NCBI GenBank assembly: GCA_016719755.1
Contig: JADJYM010000016.1
Span: forward strand, 310,001 to 374,000
DNA length: 64,000 bases
From: Novosphingobium sp.
GTDB taxonomy: Bacteria > Pseudomonadota > Alphaproteobacteria > Sphingomonadales > Sphingomonadaceae
Direction: 5' to 3'
The notes beneath the pieces are model-generated. The model saw nothing but the letters and a program-made list of their open reading frames with translations. It had not been told where the DNA came from and searched no databases. A program made the position numbers and the translations under genes. Of the stretch, positions 29,163 to 42,155 are shown piece by piece (position 1 is the stretch's first letter; every line of letters begins with the position of its first letter).

Positions 29163-29743
29163 GCGGCAAGTTCTCTCTGCTCGCGCAGCGCGCCCAGCAC
29201 TGCCAGCAGCGGCATGCCCAGCACGGTGAAATGATCGCCCGCGATTGCATCGAACAGTTGCACGCCCAGCCCCTCGATCCGGAAAACCCCGACACAGCCC
29301 GCAACCGCAGGCCATTCGGCGGCGAGATAGCTGGCGATGAACGCTTCGGATAGGGGGCGCACCGCAAGCTGAGCCACGGCGTGGTGACGCCAGACCACCA
29401 CGCCATCGCGGGCCAGGGCCGCTGCCGAGTGGAGCCGCATCGTCCGGCCGGAAAAGAAGCGCAAATGATCGGCCGCGTTCTCCTTGCTGGCAGGCTTGTC
29501 GAACCGCTGCCCTTCAACTTCGACGAGGGAATCGCTGCCCAGCACCAGTCGTCCGGGCTGTTCGCGACTGACCGCCATGGCTTTTGCTTCGGCGAGGGCG
29601 AGCGCCACCGTATCCGGCGAGACGTTCCCCAGACCAGCTTCGAGCGCACGCTCATCCACATGGGCGGGGCAGGGCTCGAAAGCCACGCCGGCAGCTTCGA
29701 GCATTGCCTTGCGCGAGGCACTTTGCGAGGCGAGCACCAGCAT
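29159..29743 (-). CDS. maf: Maf family nucleoside-triphosphate pyrophosphatase
   Basis: 194 residues. [16 protein letters not shown] (Maf N-terminal signature), [27 protein letters not shown] (catalytic Asp) and [13 protein letters not shown]. Hydrolyses non-canonical or modified NTPs. Overlaps aroE by 4 bp and shares one base with the upstream gene, in the origin-left operon. Confidence 0.94.
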
Positions 29744-30573
29744 CAGGTCGGCCCTCCTTCCTTGGGCGCGCGGTGTTCATTGTAGAGGTTGATGATCGCG
29801 GCGGCGGCTTCCTCGATCGAGCGACGGGTCACATCGATCACCGGCCAGCCATTGTCGGCGAACATTCGCCGCGCGAACTGCAGTTCGGCATTGACCCGGT
29901 CCTGATCGACATAGGCGGTCTCGGGCGCCTGGCCAAGCGTAAGCAGCCGGTTGCGGCGCACCTGCACCAGCCGTTCGGGCGCGGTCGTGAGCCCGACGAC
30001 CAGCGGATGCTTGAGGCCATAGAGCGCCGGAGGCGGGGGGCTTTCGACCACGATCGGGATATTGGCCACCTTGTAGCCGCGCTGGGCGAGATAGATCGAG
30101 GTTGGCGTCTTGGAGCTGCGCGACACTCCGGCCAGCACGATGTCCGCCTCTTCCCAGTCCTCCCAGCCAACGCCGTCGTCATGCGCGATGGTATAGTGGA
30201 CCGCATCAACCCGCGCGAAATAGGCATCGTCCATCGCGTGCTGACGGCCGGGCCGGGCGCGCGGAATCTGGCCAAGCGCCGCTTCCAGCGCATGGACCGC
30301 GGCATCGAGCACCGGCACCACCGGCAAGCCAAGCGTGCGGCAGTGTTCTTCCAGCCGGGCCCGGGTATCGGAGTTGACCAGCGTGTAGAACACCAGTCCC
30401 GGATTGGCGGCAATTTCGCGCATGATCCGGTCAAGGTGCTGCTGCGAGCGGACCATCGGCCAGAAATGACGGATCACCTCGGCCCCCTCGAACTGGGCGA
30501 GCGCGGCCTTGGCGAGCATCTCGAGTGTCTCGCCGGTTGAATCCGACAGCAAGTGGAGGTGAAGACGGGGCAT
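29743..30573 (-). CDS. pyruvate, water dikinase regulatory protein (DUF299, kinase/pyrophosphorylase)
   Basis: 276 residues. Bifunctional serine/threonine kinase and phosphorylase family (PPSR/PDRP): [17 protein letters not shown] at the N-terminus and the P-loop-like [20 protein letters not shown] near residue 150. Would switch phosphoenolpyruvate synthase or PPDK by phosphorylating a threonine next to the catalytic His. In Caulobacter and Rickettsia the homologue (RP001-like gene) flanks the replication origin opposite hemE, as here. Confidence 0.93.
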
Positions 30574-30891
30574 ATCAGGTGTTCAGGAGCGCCCTGTGGA
30601 TGATTTGCGGCATAAACCACGGGACAGGCACGGGCACAAGTTCGGCGCGGGATTCACTCCCCGCTCGCAGGAGTCCCCGAGGCGACTTGTGGACATGTCC
30701 AAAACGTTTCCCACAGGCTGGGGATAGGGCGGATAAGCCGTGCTTGACGCGTGGCCGTGCAGAGTCGGTTGCCGCTTCCCCCTGTTCAGCACGGGACAAT
30801 TCGGGCAAGGCGCGGCTGTTCCCGCTATCCACAGCCCAACTACTATCAACATCCTATAGAATCTAATTTGTATTTGATTGGAATCCGCACG
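30574..30891. other. oriC: candidate chromosomal replication origin (oriC)
   Basis: A 318-bp non-coding region between the divergent PPSR and hemE genes, the position of the Caulobacter origin. It contains two nine-mers one base from the DnaA box TTATCCACA (TGTGGATGA at 30595-30603, read on the minus strand; CTATCCACA at 30825-30833), several weaker ones (30688-30696, 30707-30715, 30720-30728), five GANTC sites, and a 45-bp stretch at 30838-30882 with only 12 G/C that could unwind. TATCAACATCCTA at 30844 is one base from an IHF site. No TTAA-based CtrA site is present. Origin function is inferred from synteny and motifs. The hemE promoter must also lie here. Confidence 0.72.
30838..30882. other. 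AT-rich stretch, candidate DNA unwinding element
   Basis: 12 of 45 bases are G or C in an otherwise very G+C-rich sequence. It lies at the hemE side of the putative origin, 4 bp after the DnaA-box-like CTATCCACA. It could equally be the hemE promoter region. Confidence 0.45.
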
Positions 30892-31917
30892 ATGCCCGGT
30901 TTGCTCCTTCGTACCTTGCGTGGTGAAAATGGCGATCGTCGGCCGATCTGGCTGATGCGTCAGGCCGGCCGTTATCTGCCGGAATACCGGGCGCTGAGGG
31001 CCCAGAAAGGCGGCTTCCTGCCGCTGGTCTACGATGCCGAAGCCGCTGCCGAGATAACGCTTCAGCCGATCCGGCGCTATGGGCTGGACGGGGCGATCCT
31101 GTTTTCCGACATCCTGATCGTGCCCTATGCGATGGGGCAGGATCTGGAGTTCCTCGCCGGGGAAGGTCCGCACCTCTCGCCGCGGCTTGCCGATGCGGCG
31201 CTGTCCAGCCTTCATGCGGTGCCGCAGCGGCTTTCGCCGATCTACGACACGGTCAAGCTGGTGCGCGCACAGCTGCCCGCCGACAAGACGATGCTGGGCT
31301 TTGCCGGATCGCCCTGGACCGTGGCGACCTACATGGTGAACGGCGAGGGCAGCCGCGACCAGCATGAAACACGGGCCATGGCTTACCGCGACCGCGCAGC
31401 CTTCCAGGCGATCATCGATGCCATCGTGAGCGTGACGGTGGACTATCTCGCGGGTCAGGTGCTGGCCGGGGCCGAGGCGGTGCAGCTGTTCGATTCCTGG
31501 GCCGGAAGCCTGGCCCCCAGCGAGTTCGAACGCTGGGTGATTGCGCCCAATGCCGCGATCGTATCCGCCCTGAAGAAGCGATTCCCCGAACTTCCGGTGA
31601 TCGGCTTCCCCAAGGGTGCGGGCGAGAAACTGCCAGCCTATGCCCGCGAAACGGGTGTTCACGCCGTCGGTATCGACGAGACGATCGATCCGGTCTGGGC
31701 CGCGCGGGAACTGCCTGCCGGCCTGCCGGTGCAGGGCAATCTCGATCCGCTGCTGCTGCTGTCGGGAGGTGACGAGATGGAGCGCGAGACTCTGCGTATC
31801 CTCGATGCCTTCGCTGATCGGCCCCACGTATTCAACCTTGGCCACGGGATCGGGCAGACGACTCCGGTCGAACATGTCGCCCAGTTGCTTGGGGTAGTGC
31901 GCGGGTGGAGCCGATAG
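30892..31917 (+). CDS. hemE: uroporphyrinogen decarboxylase
   Basis: 341 residues. Converts uroporphyrinogen III to coproporphyrinogen III. Signatures: RRPIWLMRQAGRYLPEYR, AILFSDILIVPYAMGQ (active-site Asp), GFAGSPWTVATYM, and GVHAVGIDETIDP followed by NLGHGIGQTTPVEHV. ATG 30892 fits the family N-terminus. First gene of the rightward group at the origin, followed by hemJ, so both are heme-biosynthetic. Confidence 0.96.
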   Translation: MPGLLLRTLRGENGDRRPIWLMRQAGRYLPEYRALRAQKGGFLPLVYDAEAAAEITLQPIRRYGLDGAILFSDILIVPYAMGQDLEFLAGEGPHLSPRLADAALSSLHAVPQRLSPIYDTVKLVRAQLPADKTMLGFAGSPWTVATYMVNGEGSRDQHETRAMAYRDRAAFQAIIDAIVSVTVDYLAGQVLAGAEAVQLFDSWAGSLAPSEFERWVIAPNAAIVSALKKRFPELPVIGFPKGAGEKLPAYARETGVHAVGIDETIDPVWAARELPAGLPVQGNLDPLLLLSGGDEMERETLRILDAFADRPHVFNLGHGIGQTTPVEHVAQLLGVVRGWSR

Positions 31918-33870: not shown

Positions 33871-34266
33871 CTAGGACGCCTGCTGAAGCTGCGCCGCCAT
33901 CATTTCCCATAGCTTGTTCATCGCCTTCATCGGGCGAACCATAACCTTGAAATCCTTTATTTTTCCGTCCGGTGCAAAGCGGATCAGATCGATTCCGTTG
34001 ATGTGGATCCCGTCGATCTCGGCGGTGAATTCAAGGCAGGCGTCGTCGCCATCGACCAGTTCGCGGACATAGCGGAAACTGTCGTTCCCCAGCACCACCG
34101 CCGCCGCGCCGAGGTAGGCCATGACCTTGGCCTTGCCCTCCTGCGGGGTGTGGACCACGGGGGAGTGGAACACCGCATCATCGGCCAGCATATCCGATAG
34201 CAGGGCCAGATCGCTGCCGCCCTGCATATAGGCGTGCCAGCGGGCCACGCGGGGATCGTTGCTCAT
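33871..34266 (-). CDS. NTF2-like/SnoaL-fold protein
   Basis: 131 residues of the NTF2-like superfamily (cone-shaped alpha+beta barrel): ARWHAYMQGGSDLALLSDML, AVFHSPVVHTPQEGKAKVMAYL, CLEFTAEIDGIHINGIDLIRF. These folds bind small hydrophobic ligands or act as isomerases; activity cannot be read from the sequence. ATG 34266 chosen because the ribosome-binding stretch AGGAGAGGA lies in front of it. Divergent from the hydroxylase gene. Confidence 0.8.
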   Translation of the reverse strand: MSNDPRVARWHAYMQGGSDLALLSDMLADDAVFHSPVVHTPQEGKAKVMAYLGAAAVVLGNDSFRYVRELVDGDDACLEFTAEIDGIHINGIDLIRFAPDGKIKDFKVMVRPMKAMNKLWEMMAAQLQQAS

Positions 34267-34324
34267 TGTGTCCTCTCCTGTTGTTCGGATCACCATGCCT
34301 TGGCTTGGGGCTGAATTCCAGCTT

Positions 34325-35464
34325 ATGAACCAGGCTATGAGCAGCGATCCATCCGCCAGCCTGTCCGCCGGTCTCCAGGCCCTGCAGCAGCGCGACCCGG
34401 CCCGGGCTGCGGGCCTGCTGCGCGAAGCGGCCACCGGGCTCCCGCGAGAAGCGATGAATTGGGTAGCCTTGTCGAATGCCGAGATGGCGCTGGGCAATCG
34501 CGATGCGGCCGAAGCTGCCCTTGAAGCCCAGCTGGAACTGGCCCCGCGCGATATCGGTGCCCTGCTGATGAAGGGCCTCCTGCGCGAGCAGGCGGGGGAC
34601 CCGCGTGCGGCGTCCAGTTTCTACCGCGCCGCCACCAACCAGGCAGCGGTGAGCGGAGACGTGCCCACGCCGCTGGCGGCGCTGCACAACCACGCCAGGA
34701 CCTTTCTGGCCAGCAGCAGTGCCGATTTCGAAGCCCACCTTCTCGAAAACCTGGGAAGCGATCTGTCACCGGCCATGATCGAGGCGGTCGAACTGCTGAC
34801 CGGCAAGCGTGAGCTTTATCTTCAGCAGCCGTCAGTGCTGTATTACCCCGGCTTGCCGCAGAAGCGGTTCTATGATCCGGCGGATTTCCCCTGGTTTGCC
34901 CCGATGTTGAAGCTTGTTCCGCAGATGCGGGCCGAACTTGCCACGGAACTGGAGCGCGGGGCGGCGGGCTTTTCGCCCTATGTTCACCGCAGGCGCCACC
35001 GCCCAGCGCCCAACAGCCCCTTGCTCGATAATCAGGCCTGGACCGCGTTCCATTTCTGGCGGGACGGCGAATTGCAGGAAGTGAATGCCGCGCGCTGCCC
35101 GGCAACGATGGAGGCCCTGGGCCACGCGCCGCTGGTGCGAATCCCGGGGCGCAGTCCCAACGCCCATTGGTCGCGGCTGCTGCCGGGCGCCCATATTGCG
35201 CCGCATGTCGGCATGCTCAACACCCGGCTGATCTGCCATATTCCGATCCTCACCGCGCCCCGTTGCTGGTTCCGGGTGGGTAGCGAACGGCGCGAGTGGA
35301 TCGACGGCGTACCGCTGGTATTCGACGATTCGATCGATCACGAGGCAAAGAACGATGGCCCGCAGGAGCGGGTCATCCTGTTGTTCGAAATCTGGCGACC
35401 CGAGATCGATGCGGCCGACCGCGAGGCGATCGGCCGCATTTTCCAGATCGTCGGCGAAGTCTGA
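34325..35464 (+). CDS. TPR protein with aspartyl/arginyl (asparaginyl) beta-hydroxylase domain
   Basis: 379 residues from ATG 34325 (ATG 34337 also possible). An N-terminal helical part (residues 10-120) with TPR-like spacing (GLLREAATGLPREAMNWVAL, GNRDAAEAALEAQLELAPRD) precedes an Asp_Arg_Hydrox domain: PGAHIAPHVGMLNTRLICHI supplies the first iron-binding His plus 2-oxoglutarate-contacting residues and DDSIDHEAKND the second His. Fe(II)/2-oxoglutarate oxygenase, target protein or metabolite unknown. Confidence 0.87.
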   Translation: MNQAMSSDPSASLSAGLQALQQRDPARAAGLLREAATGLPREAMNWVALSNAEMALGNRDAAEAALEAQLELAPRDIGALLMKGLLREQAGDPRAASSFYRAATNQAAVSGDVPTPLAALHNHARTFLASSSADFEAHLLENLGSDLSPAMIEAVELLTGKRELYLQQPSVLYYPGLPQKRFYDPADFPWFAPMLKLVPQMRAELATELERGAAGFSPYVHRRRHRPAPNSPLLDNQAWTAFHFWRDGELQEVNAARCPATMEALGHAPLVRIPGRSPNAHWSRLLPGAHIAPHVGMLNTRLICHIPILTAPRCWFRVGSERREWIDGVPLVFDDSIDHEAKNDGPQERVILLFEIWRPEIDAADREAIGRIFQIVGEV

Positions 35465-35468
35465 TCCC

Positions 35469-36167
35469 TTAGCCGAGGTGTTCCTTCAGGAACGCTTCGG
35501 TGCGGCTGTCCGCCAACTGTGCCCCGGCTTCGTCCCGGCGGTCGCCCATTTCGGCGGCAAAGCCATGGTCCAGCCCGTCATAGTCATGAAGCGTGACCTT
35601 GGGATGGTCATCCAGCCCGGCATGGATCGCTGCCTGGGCTTCCGGGCCGACGAAGTGATCGGCGGTCGGGATGTGGAGCATCAGCGGATTGGCAATGGCA
35701 TGGGCTTCGTCCAGCATCTGGTCGATCATCACGCCGTAATAGCCGACCGAAGCGTCAATGTCGGTCCGAGCTGCGGCCATATAGGCAAGCCGTCCGCCCA
35801 GGCAGTAACCCGCGCAGCCGGCCTTGCCGACACCCTGGGTGCCGCGAATCCAGCGGATCGTGGCCTCGATGTCGTAAACCCCGTTGTTCGCATCGTAGCG
35901 CTGGAAATAGCCAAAGGCTTCCTGGAGTTCCGCTTCGATATCGGGATTGAGTTCGACTCCTGGTGCGAACCGCCAGAACAGGTCTGGTGCAACCGCAAGA
36001 TAGCCTTCGGCAGCCCACTTGTCGCACTTCTGGCGAATGCCCGGGTTCACGCCGAAGATTTCCGGTATGACGATGATCGCGGCGCGCGGCGTACCGGCAG
36101 GGCGCGCGACATAGGCGGGAATCGATCCCGCGTGGTCATAGGCGGGGATCTGCACGGTCTCGGTCAT
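35469..36167 (-). CDS. dienelactone hydrolase family protein
   Basis: 232 residues, alpha/beta hydrolase. Catalytic triad C122 (GYCLGGRLAYM), D170 (PTADHFVGP) and H201 (LDHGFAAEMGD), with E36 (PEIFGVNPGIR) as in dienelactone hydrolase. May hydrolyse dienelactone-like or other esters. ATG 36167 (MTETVQIP) is preferred over the upstream in-frame starts. Convergent with the hydroxylase gene (4 bp apart). Confidence 0.9.
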   Translation of the reverse strand: MTETVQIPAYDHAGSIPAYVARPAGTPRAAIIVIPEIFGVNPGIRQKCDKWAAEGYLAVAPDLFWRFAPGVELNPDIEAELQEAFGYFQRYDANNGVYDIEATIRWIRGTQGVGKAGCAGYCLGGRLAYMAAARTDIDASVGYYGVMIDQMLDEAHAIANPLMLHIPTADHFVGPEAQAAIHAGLDDHPKVTLHDYDGLDHGFAAEMGDRRDEAGAQLADSRTEAFLKEHLG

Positions 36168-36296
36168 GGGTTTTGCTCCGGTTGGCTGAATGGGGGAAGG
36201 CATCACCCTTACGCTTGGCGTGGACTTTGCCAAGGGCGTGTGTCAGCAAGGGCAGGCAGGGGCGGGGGGACAACCGGGCCGGCACAAGGAGATGCC

Positions 36297-36557
36297 ATGA
36301 AGATCCATGTCGAAATCGACTGCACCCCGGAAGAGGCGCGCACGTTTCTCGGTCTGCCGGACGTTGGCAAGGCCAACCAGTTCTATGTCGATGCCGTTGC
36401 CAAGGCGATGAAGGGCGCGGGCTCGGTTGACCAGCTCCAGGAATTTGCCAAGGGCCTGGCTCCGATGGGCCAGGTCGGGCTCAGCCTGTTCCAGCAGTTC
36501 ATGGAAGGCGGCGGTCTTGGCTCCGGCAAAGGCGGCAAGAAGAAGGACGCTGACTAG
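36297..36557 (+). CDS. DUF6489 family small protein
   Basis: 86 residues beginning MKIHVEIDCTPEEARTFLGL, the mark of DUF6489, then an amphipathic helix (QFYVDAVAKAMKGAG) and a Gly/Lys-rich tail. Function unknown. Small soluble protein placed 42 bp before mnmE. Confidence 0.8.
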   Translation: MKIHVEIDCTPEEARTFLGLPDVGKANQFYVDAVAKAMKGAGSVDQLQEFAKGLAPMGQVGLSLFQQFMEGGGLGSGKGGKKKDAD

Positions 36558-37877: not shown

Positions 37878-37893
37878 TGTTTCACGTGAAACA
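37878..37893. other. parS: parS site, perfect palindrome between mnmE and mnmG
   Basis: TGTTTCACGTGAAACA, a perfect 16-bp palindrome identical to the general bacterial parS consensus, starting on the base after the mnmE stop and ending 23 bp before mnmG. It is the best ParB-binding site in the window, 7 kb right of the putative oriC and 2.5 kb left of parA. Confidence 0.9.
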
Positions 37894-39779: not shown

Positions 39780-40420
39780 TGCTGGTGGATGAAGGCGATG
39801 CCCTGACCTGGCTCCATAGCCTACCCGAATGGAATGCTGCGGCAGAGGAGCGGCTCGCCACCCTGGTTGAGCTGCTTGGCGAGGAGAATGGCCGGCAGAA
39901 CCTCGTTTCAGCCGCAAGTCTGGCCGAGGTGTGGCGCCGCCATATCGCGGATTCAGCACAGCTCCTGCGCCATGTTCCACGTGAAACATCCGGCCCGTGG
40001 CTTGATCTTGGAACCGGGGCGGGATTTCCCGGTCTGGTCGTTGCCGCCTTGCGGCCCGAGTGCGAGGTCTTGCTGGTCGAATCGCGCAAGCGGCGGGTTG
40101 AGTGGCTGGAGCGGGCGCGAATCGCCATGGACCTTGCGGCAGTTACGGTGATTGGTGCGCGTGTCGAACTGGTCGAAACCCGCAAGGTTCGCACCATTTC
40201 GGCACGGGCTTTCGCCCCCTTGCCTCGGCTCATCGAATTGTCCGCCCGATTTTCCACAGCGGAGACGGTCTGGCTGTTGCCGAAAGGGCGTTCCGCGCAG
40301 CAGGAACTGGACGAACTCACCGGCTGGGCGCACAAGTTCCACGTGGAACCATCGCTGACCGATCCCGAGGCCGGAGTCATCGTCGGAACACTCACCGGAA
40401 GGAAGGGCAAAAAGTCGTGA
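39776..40420 (+). CDS. rsmG: 16S rRNA (guanine527-N7)-methyltransferase
   Basis: 214 residues. GidB/RsmG fold with SAM loop [28 protein letters not shown], and [16 protein letters not shown]. Overlaps mnmG by 4 bp (ATGA) and parA by 4 bp (GTGA). Two parS-type palindromes fall within its codons (39973 and 40336). Confidence 0.95.
39973..39988. other. parS: parS site within rsmG
   Basis: TGTTCCACGTGAAACA, one base from the perfect parS palindrome; this exact form is a common parS variant. Encodes part of H-V-P-R-E-T in RsmG. Confidence 0.8.
40336..40349. other. parS: parS-like palindrome near the end of rsmG
   Basis: GTTCCACGTGGAAC, a perfect 14-bp palindrome that differs from consensus symmetrically in one base of each arm, 81 bp before the parA start. 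Encodes F-H-V-E. Confidence 0.65.
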
Positions 40421-41193
40421 TTTGCGTGGCAATCGCCAACCAGAAGGGCGGCGTGGGCAAGACCACGACGGCAATCAACATCGCCACGGCGATGGCCGCA
40501 ACCGGCTGGAAGGTGCTGCTGATCGACCTCGATCCCCAGGGCAATGCCTCGACCGGGATCGGAATTGGCGCGGCGGATCGCACCGCAAGCTCCTACGACC
40601 TGCTGGTCGATCAGGCGCCGCTGGCCGATTGCATCCAGCCGACGCGCATCCCTGGCCTCGACATCGTTCCCGCCACAGTCGATCTTTCCGGCGCCGAGGT
40701 GGAACTGGTTTCGGTTGACGATCGCACCAGCCGCCTGCGCAATGCGCTGGCGGGCGATGCCGGGCATGATATTGCGTTCATCGATTGTCCGCCCTCGCTC
40801 GGCCTGCTGACGCTCAACGCGCTTTGCGCTGCGGACACCCTGCTGGTTCCCTTGCAGTGTGAATTCTTCGCGCTGGAGGGGCTGTCGCAGCTGCTCCAGA
40901 CGGTCGAGCGGGTCCAGCAGCGCTTCAACCCCGATCTGGGCATTATCGGTGTGGCGCTGACCATGTTCGACCGGCGCAACCGCTTGACCGATCAGGTTTC
41001 CGATGATGTCCGCTCGTGCCTTGGCAATCTGGTGTTCGAGGCGGTGATCCCGCGCAACGTCCGCCTGTCAGAGGCGCCCAGCCATGGTCTTCCGGCGCTG
41101 GTCTACGACCACGCCTGCGCCGGTAGCCGCGCCTACATGGCGCTGGCCCGCGAACTGATTTCCCGCCTGCCCGCACAAAGGAAGGCCGCATGA
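40417..41193 (+). CDS. parA: chromosome partitioning ATPase ParA
   Basis: 258 residues. Deviant Walker A KGGVGKTTTAINIATAMA with the signature lysine, IDLDPQGNASTGIGI, Walker B-type IAFIDCPPSLGLLT, and no N-terminal HTH domain, so the chromosomal Soj/ParA type. GTG 40417 overlaps the rsmG stop and follows the ribosome-binding stretch GGAAGGAAGGG. ATP-bound ParA drives ParB-parS complexes, here likely the origin region. Confidence 0.95.
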   Translation: MICVAIANQKGGVGKTTTAINIATAMAATGWKVLLIDLDPQGNASTGIGIGAADRTASSYDLLVDQAPLADCIQPTRIPGLDIVPATVDLSGAEVELVSVDDRTSRLRNALAGDAGHDIAFIDCPPSLGLLTLNALCAADTLLVPLQCEFFALEGLSQLLQTVERVQQRFNPDLGIIGVALTMFDRRNRLTDQVSDDVRSCLGNLVFEAVIPRNVRLSEAPSHGLPALVYDHACAGSRAYMALARELISRLPAQRKAA

Positions 41194-42155
41194 GCGACGA
41201 TCCGATCATCCGCATTACCGCGCCGCGCAACGATGCCCCCGCCAAGCGCCCGGCGCTGGGGCGCGGGCTTGGCGCGCTGCTGGGCGATACCCGGCGCGAG
41301 GAACCGCTCGTCACTTCCACGCCAAGGGGTGAGTCGGCGGTGTCGCTACCGGCGGGGCAGGGGCTGGCCATGCTGGCGGTCGCGGCGATCGCACCGCATC
41401 CGGAGCAGCCGCGCCGGCATTTCGACGACGCCGCACTGGATGAGCTGGCCGCTTCGATTGCTGCGCGCGGAGTGATCCAGCCGGTGATCGTCCGACCGTT
41501 GGGGCCGGGTAGATGGCAGCTGGTGGCGGGCGAGCGGCGGTGGCGCGCGGCCCAGCGCGCCCAGCTTCACGAAATCCCGGCGATTATCCGCGACCTTTCC
41601 GAGCGCGAGGTCATGGCGCTGGCGCTGATCGAGAACCTTCAGCGCGAAGATCTCAACCCGGTCGAGGAGGCACGTGCCTACAACCGGCTGGCCGAGGATG
41701 AAGGGCTGACCCAGGCAGAGATCGCCCGGATGGTCGACAAGAGCCGTAGCCATGTCGCCAACCTGATGCGCCTGCTGGCATTGCCGGGCGAGGTGCTGGC
41801 GATGGTCGAGGACGGGCAGCTTTCGATGGGCCACGCCCGCGCCCTGATCGGCGCCGAGGATGCCGTTGCCCTGGCGCACGAAGCGGTCGGCAAGGGTCTG
41901 TCGGTGCGCGAGGTTGAAAAGCTGCTGCGCCGCCGCAGCCAGGCGCCAGCCGCACCGCGCCGCGCCCGGGCCGAGCGCGAACCGGCGGCATCCGCCGATA
42001 TCGCGGCAGTCCAGGCGCATCTGGAAGAGTTCCTCGGCCTGTCGGTTCGAATCAACACCGATGCGGATCCCCGGTCGGGTTCGGTAACCATTCGCTACCG
42101 GACGCTCGATCAGCTTGACCTGATTTGTCAGCGCCTGACCGGCGGCGGGATCTAG
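41190..42155 (+). CDS. parB: chromosome partitioning protein ParB
   Basis: 321 residues. N-terminal ParA-interaction box KRPALGRGLGALLGD, the CTP-binding ParB/Srx domain with GERRWRAAQRAQLHEIPAII and LALIENLQREDLNPVEEA, the HTH region (LTQAEIARMVDKSRSHVANL, MGHARALIG) that reads parS, and a C-terminal dimerisation segment (SGSVTIRYRTLDQLDLIC). Start overlaps parA by 4 bp. Last gene of the rightward origin cluster. Confidence 0.96.
   Translation: MSDDPIIRITAPRNDAPAKRPALGRGLGALLGDTRREEPLVTSTPRGESAVSLPAGQGLAMLAVAAIAPHPEQPRRHFDDAALDELAASIAARGVIQPVIVRPLGPGRWQLVAGERRWRAAQRAQLHEIPAIIRDLSEREVMALALIENLQREDLNPVEEARAYNRLAEDEGLTQAEIARMVDKSRSHVANLMRLLALPGEVLAMVEDGQLSMGHARALIGAEDAVALAHEAVGKGLSVREVEKLLRRRSQAPAAPRRARAEREPAASADIAAVQAHLEEFLGLSVRINTDADPRSGSVTIRYRTLDQLDLICQRLTGGGI

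Follow-up and report, generated by a model that had tools for sequence, protein, structure and literature searches.

The closest described systems are origins that lie beside hemE. In Caulobacter crescentus the origin, Cori, sits at the junction of hemE and a COG1806 gene and holds five DnaA boxes and an AT-rich stretch as well as sites for CtrA (five, with the consensus TTAA-N7-TTAA) and for IHF (one), while putative alphaproteobacterial origins without CtrA sites, for example that of Ehrlichia ruminantium, are mentioned in the same source (PMC1914354, in excerpt). Stronger DnaA sites are mixed with weak ones in Cori (PMC4468827, in excerpt). Closer to the present case, Sphingopyxis has been described as having its oriC beside hemE, with DnaA boxes and an unwinding element that are both putative, and DoriC predicts a hemE-side oriC for most Sphingomonadaceae (excerpts of PMC4741004); because this is already published, such a position is ordinary for the group. 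In Sphingomonadales, dnaA is stated not to be kept near the origin (PMC8116508, in excerpt). Here, we place the origin in a draft genome; parS sites, GC skew and an alignment of 75 gaps add to the earlier prediction that put the sphingomonad origin at the hemE junction. We regard it as very probable that chromosome replication in this Novosphingobium-like bacterium starts at positions 30574-30891, its putative oriC.

The stretch of DNA analysed (the window, 64,000 nucleotides) comprises bases 310001-374000 of contig C16 (702,789 bp) in a genome of 3.71 Mb and 16 contigs; among the best 80 of 580 relatives, the loci closest by HemE are mostly Novosphingobium, with a top identity of 87%. The putative oriC, to which no strand is assigned, is a gap of 318 bp between two divergent genes, exactly as the preliminary description had it. 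On one side the gene for PPSR (pyruvate,phosphate dikinase/PEP synthase regulator, COG1806/RP001 type; 29743-30573, minus strand; NF003742, 325.8 bits, above cut-off) starts at 30573, and on the other hemE (uroporphyrinogen decarboxylase; 30892-31917, plus strand; TIGR01464, 384 bits, above cut-off) has its ATG at 30892. By best NCBIfam matches, which for ptsN, aroE, maf, hemJ and parA fall under the curated cut-offs, the PPSR arm reads ptsN-hpf-dnaQ-coaE-aroE-maf-PPSR and the hemE arm hemE-hemJ-rho-(two other genes)-mnmE-mnmG-rsmG-parA-parB. The flanking order named in the preliminary description is present in the window, and the flanks of the Caulobacter origin are taken, as in that description, to follow the same gene order beyond the hemE/COG1806 junction. 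For the junction itself, the equivalence has a published source (PMC1914354, in excerpt).

The interval from rho to mnmE (34259-36557) encodes an aspartyl/asparaginyl beta-hydroxylase, which also has TPR-like matches, and contains an overlapping frame that matches DUF6489 over a short length. Elsewhere in the genome, two receiver-domain matches of equal score and length (G000:C2:2572-2940 and, outside the window, G000:C16:509418-509786), each with one in-frame TGA and one of them near a contig start, are possibly a repeated element.

The gap contains two DnaA boxes at one mismatch and five at two mismatches to the reference TTATCCACA, of which there is no perfect copy in the gap. The one-mismatch sites read TGTGGATGA at 30595-30603 (minus strand, as a box TCATCCACA) and CTATCCACA at 30825-30833 (plus strand), the former on the PPSR side and the latter adjoining an AT-rich stretch. 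Three weak boxes lie centrally: ATGTCCACA (30688-30696, minus strand), TTTCCCACA (30707-30715, plus strand) and CTATCCCCA, with a TCCCCA core (30719-30727, minus strand). Two further box-like sequences are very weak and doubtful, TTATCCGCC (30728-30736, minus strand) and CTATCAACA (30843-30851, plus strand, within the AT-rich stretch). The two degenerate boxes one base off, as first reported, are thus in place, and weaker boxes are indeed present, but the count of three given for them becomes five at two mismatches. None of 2000 dinucleotide shuffles of the gap reached two boxes at one mismatch or fewer, and none reached seven at two or fewer. In a scan of the whole contig, seven boxes (two mismatches or fewer) within 318 bp occur only over the hemE/PPSR gap. 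Two boxes at one mismatch or fewer within 318 bp recur at one other place, near 656,925, beside an integrated element, and an intergenic stretch of 907 bp at C16:601,433 (crude gene call) holds six two-mismatch boxes over nearly three times the length of the gap.

We compared 110 loci (80 plus 30, the window's own among the 30) to see how far this arrangement is shared. PPSR is divergent from hemE over a short gap in 102 of them; it was not found beside hemE in the remaining eight (L047, L055, L068, L077, L078, L087, L089 and the truncated L084). In six of the first seven, a 40-mer of at most 13 G/C stands upstream of hemE, and one-mismatch boxes are present there in five, the exceptions being L047 and L087. 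L087 has neither such boxes nor an AT-rich stretch upstream of hemE, and its origin may have moved elsewhere.

For alignment we used gaps of 250-440 bp with HemE identity of at least 59%, leaving out the remoter alphaproteobacteria and the 492-bp gap of L108; this gave 77 sequences including the window, 75 of them distinct, which are not 75 independent events because many are close kin. Boxes at one mismatch or fewer number 2.09 per gap against 0.055 in shuffled sequence, and at two or fewer 5.11 against 0.75. With 3.12 copies per gap on average, at a mean gap length of 334 bp, TCCACA reaches a density of about 9.3 per kb, compared with 0.29 per kb on the contig; TCCCCA and CCCACA show a roughly nine- to ten-fold enrichment in the gaps, and in 42 of the 75 the box closest to the AT-rich stretch carries TCCCCG or TCCCCA within the nine bases immediately upstream of it. 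Conservation of 80% or more extends over four or more adjacent columns in eight runs, and the three longest are DnaA-box cores: TGTGGA at 30595, CCACAG at 30711 (30711-30716) and TCCACAG at 30828 (30828-30834). The other five are ATAAA (30612), GGGA (30621), GGCA (30804), CCCG (30821) and CCAAC (30836). Columns conserved at 95% or more make up 6.0% of the 318 gap positions, against none of 94 four-fold sites and 2.7% of 334 third positions in hemE; at 85% or more, the gap reaches 22.0% and the four-fold sites 6.4%. Mean column conservation, however, is nearly equal (gap 0.615, four-fold sites 0.597, third positions 0.608), so that only blocks stand out in the gap. At least one copy of a GGGACAA element, on either strand, is found in 42 of the 75 gaps, and at least two forward copies in 11.

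The stretch of 45 bp with 12 G/C that had been described was located at 30838-30882 (no strand assigned) and is a putative duplex unwinding element. Of the 702,745 overlapping 45-mers on the contig, 79 are as poor in G/C or poorer. The lowest-GC 40-mer falls in the hemE-proximal third in all 75 sphingomonad gaps and in 21 of 24 remoter alphaproteobacterial gaps. In the window, CTATCCACA is followed after a spacer of 4 bp by a run of five NAN triplets, a run of five or more being reached in 3.7% of shuffles, and the published BUS search pattern of box, spacer and DnaA-trios (PMC8287927, in excerpt) is matched, as applied here with a box of at most two mismatches, a spacer of 0-16 and at least three NAN, whatever the strand polarity of the trios. 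Among the relatives, three or more NAN occur in 32 of 75 gaps against about 33% of shuffles, near chance, so that DnaA-trios are not clearly a shared feature. The IHF site is not convincing: the IHF-like sequence reported earlier exists as a single one-mismatch match in the gap (30844-30856), but it has no support as a conserved feature, the consensus being exact in none of the 75 gaps and within one mismatch in 32.

Two parS sites, neither assigned a strand, are the only ones in the genome at two mismatches or fewer, and both lie 7-9 kb from the gap: TGTTTCACGTGAAACA between mnmE and mnmG (37878-37893) and TGTTCCACGTGAAACA inside rsmG (39973-39988). They are followed by a parA open frame (40102-41193, plus strand) whose start codon is not settled and which, as listed, overlaps rsmG (ParA/MinD-family matches, best TIGR03453 at 109.6 bits, under cut-off), and by parB (41190-42155, plus strand; TIGR00180, 188.7 bits, above cut-off). 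A stricter parS pattern is present in 57 of 61 genomes, counting that of the window. Among 31 relatives with listed sites, all those listed for the 28 with parS on the hemE contig fall within 38 kb of hemE; the fragmented G048 and G056 (listed sites off the hemE contig) and G044 (hemE in two pieces) were omitted from this comparison.

Cumulative GC skew, proposed earlier as a check, agrees weakly on the contig itself: mean skew is -0.0059 (SE 0.0028) to the left and +0.0062 (SE 0.0033) to the right, and the CUSUM minimum was reached by 41 of 10,000 block permutations, but the minimum, at 286,362, misses the gap by 54 kb to the left and belongs to a flat trough that spans about 200 to 460 kb. 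The orientation bias of GGGNAGGG, which we take to be a KOPS-like motif, is one-sided on this contig (44:16 to the right, 48:50 to the left). We also sampled skew every 200 kb along the main contigs of two relatives, G005 (3.91 Mb) and G027 (3.67 Mb), treating each as circular with the terminus opposite the origin. Oriented on hemE, skew averages 0.0354 (SE 0.0057; 17 of 20 stretches positive) in G005 and 0.0247 (SE 0.0051; 15 of 19) in G027. The best-fit origin falls at 3.45-3.60 Mb in G005, with the optimum at 3.60 Mb by a hair and hemE at 3.477 Mb, and at 2.25-2.40 Mb in G027, where hemE is at 2.306 Mb and skew near it is noisy, two stretches to its left being slightly positive.

As dnaA-linked origins are common among bacteria, an oriC adjoining dnaA has to be considered. 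The 3' end of dnaA has five two-mismatch boxes in a 318-bp span, and skew in G005 oriented on dnaA is still positive (0.0251, SE 0.0081; 15 of 20 stretches), hemE being preferred there through just the two stretches at 3.61 and 3.81 Mb, each close to +0.05. Against this, dnaA is on another contig (C4:398078-399454) that has no parS at two mismatches or fewer, skew keeps one sign in the surrounding 40 kb (-0.027 to -0.014 in four stretches of 10 kb), and the one-mismatch boxes there, three in number, are spread out over 40 kb. In G027, where dnaA is 575 kb from hemE, the dnaA fit is poor (0.0054, SE 0.0076; 9 of 19 stretches). On the main contig of G005 the numbering starts at dnaA, which is about 433 kb away from hemE if the contig is circular; position 1 there would therefore not be the origin. 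Sampled skew thus fits hemE better than dnaA, clearly in one relative and modestly in the other, and we give an origin at dnaA next to no credence. The same holds for a second chromosomal origin from an integrated element near C16:656,000, which we consider exceedingly improbable. That element carries a replication initiator A gene (RepA; PF10134, 287.5 bits), behind which come three direct repeats of 17 nt (76-100% identical to the reference copy) and an exact DnaA box, TTATCCACA; yet next to these lie a signal peptidase, a transglycosylase and a protein with a relaxase domain, as in a conjugative element or plasmid, parS is absent there at two mismatches or fewer, and the cumulative skew maximum at 650,547 adjoins it, where an origin would give a minimum. 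This plasmid- or ICE-like module (L202:8167-13641, C16 about 656,045-661,519) lies outside the window.

The gap might instead be a mere divergent promoter region for PPSR and hemE, with synteny left over from old operons. Promoters for both genes must sit in it, and on the minus strand the TTTATG of a 13-mer block described below stands 17 bp from a TTGTCC-like consensus sequence (TTGTGC in the window), which by eye would suit a PPSR promoter. A scan of 30400-31000 for the sigma-70 consensus alone nevertheless returned no promoter-like site, and a terminator scan returned none either. The box cluster is unique on the contig, and the three longest of the eight conserved blocks are DnaA-box cores. 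Promoters alone do not account for the clustering of parS or for the skew, and we judge this explanation very unlikely. The origin at hemE/PPSR put forward in the preliminary description is upheld by what is observed of its anatomy, conservation, contig uniqueness, parS proximity and the sampled skew of two relatives: parS occurs here alone, the gap is kept with its conserved blocks, the box cluster has no equal on the contig, the AT-rich stretch is in place in 75 of 75 gaps, and relatives' skew favours hemE over dnaA.

If the gap is the origin, its layout suggests how initiation would proceed. DnaA would first load on the one-mismatch boxes near both ends of the gap (30595 and 30825), and would then extend over the weaker central boxes (30688-30727). 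The resulting complex would open the AT-rich stretch at 30838-30882, starting 4 bp past the 30825 box, after which the helicase could be loaded. ParB, bound at the two parS sites 7-9 kb away, would with ParA partition the sister origins.

One conserved block belongs to none of these parts. The 13-mer ATAAACCACGGGA (30612-30624, plus strand), 8 bp from the PPSR-side DnaA box, occurs exactly once in each of 27 of 37 genomes of the genus, always 268-307 bp upstream of hemE and on the hemE strand; the other ten have no exact match. In 24 genomes of other families there are two occurrences, both far from hemE; as a control, the reversed pattern matched twice in 61 genomes. Among 78 sphingomonad gaps the 13-mer is exact in 46 and without a match at three mismatches or fewer in 10; variants include ATAAATCAAGG in Blastomonas and others and ATAAATCAAGGGA in some other gaps. 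It fits neither the DnaA box nor the IHF or CtrA consensus. Nor do we read it as a CtrA half-site, because TTAACCAT, which we take to be that half-site, is exact in none of the 75 gaps, within one mismatch in nine, and absent from the window gap. A text search with the first 12 letters returned no literature match, sequence in figures being invisible to such a search. The 13-mer could be part of the PPSR promoter or a site for an origin protein. That it is a candidate binding site of a dedicated sphingomonad origin regulator, replacing gating by CtrA, we put forward as a speculative and rather unlikely idea. If it were true, a regulator bound at ATAAACCACGGGA and conserved GANTC sites would form a control layer at the origin, and the literature searched here gave no description of a layer of this kind at an alphaproteobacterial origin.

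The preliminary description had also remarked on the lack of TTAA-type CtrA sites, and rightly: TTAA-N7-TTAA is absent from the window gap even at one mismatch, is exact in none of the 75 gaps and comes within one mismatch in seven. CtrA is nonetheless encoded in the genome (NF045991, 424.7 bits, above cut-off), as are GcrA (PF07750, 126.3 bits) and one RAMA-domain protein (PF18755, 70.7 bits) that we infer to be CcrM-like. The locus thereby provides a concrete case of alphaproteobacterial origin timing with CtrA encoded but without its canonical sites at the origin. In Sphingomonas melonis, loss of CtrA is described as having no negative effect on growth or viability, with an influence on replication reported (PMC8116508, in excerpt). 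GANTC occurs five times in the gap, at 30651-30655, 30671-30675, 30762-30766, 30859-30863 (within the AT-rich stretch) and 30881-30885 (at the hemE end). At the columns of the third, GAGTC or GATTC is found in 59 of 75 gaps, and at those of the fourth, counted over the eight commonest strings, GAATC or GATTC in at least 32 of 75. Each of the 75 gaps has at least two such sites, and the mean is 4.33, compared with 1.37 for shuffled sequence. On the contig, five or more within 318 bp occur at nine separate places, this gap included; by a crude gene call, density is 2.32 per kb in intergenic against 1.46 in genic sequence, and among the 96 intergenic stretches that are 250 bp or longer, two hold five or more and none reaches 5 per 318 bp, the hemE/PPSR gap itself falling outside the 96 because an open frame upstream of hemE shortened it in that call. 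Such dense GANTC is at most compatible with methylation-linked control. The preliminary description took control of this origin to differ from that in Caulobacter, which may be so although the CtrA, GcrA and RAMA-domain genes are all present; CtrA acting on TTAA-N7-TTAA sites is probably not what controls it, and timing may depend on the level or ATP state of DnaA, and possibly on GANTC methylation.

Compared with known systems, the locus combines familiar parts with a few that are not. The sequence that we take to be the Caulobacter G-box, TGATCCACA, is not in the window gap and occurs in two of the 75 gaps. Box, short GC-rich spacer and AT-rich stretch follow one another in the window, an order that we presume oriC of Escherichia coli to share. 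The unwinding module (BUS) of Bacillus subtilis is alike in these three elements (PMC8287927, in excerpt), but differs in that the NAN runs of the sphingomonad relatives are not clearly above those of shuffles. With Cori the window shares the hemE/COG1806 junction, an AT-rich stretch and stronger alongside weak DnaA sites (PMC1914354 and PMC4468827, both in excerpt), whereas the window gap has neither a CtrA site nor a convincing IHF site. The likeness to the oriC of Sphingopyxis and other Sphingomonadaceae lies in the junction, the conserved putative DnaA boxes and the putative unwinding element (PMC4741004, in excerpt), although the exact 13-mer is not universal among sphingomonad origins. 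The 13-mer and timing without canonical CtrA sites are the parts of this origin that reach beyond the known picture of a hemE-side oriC.
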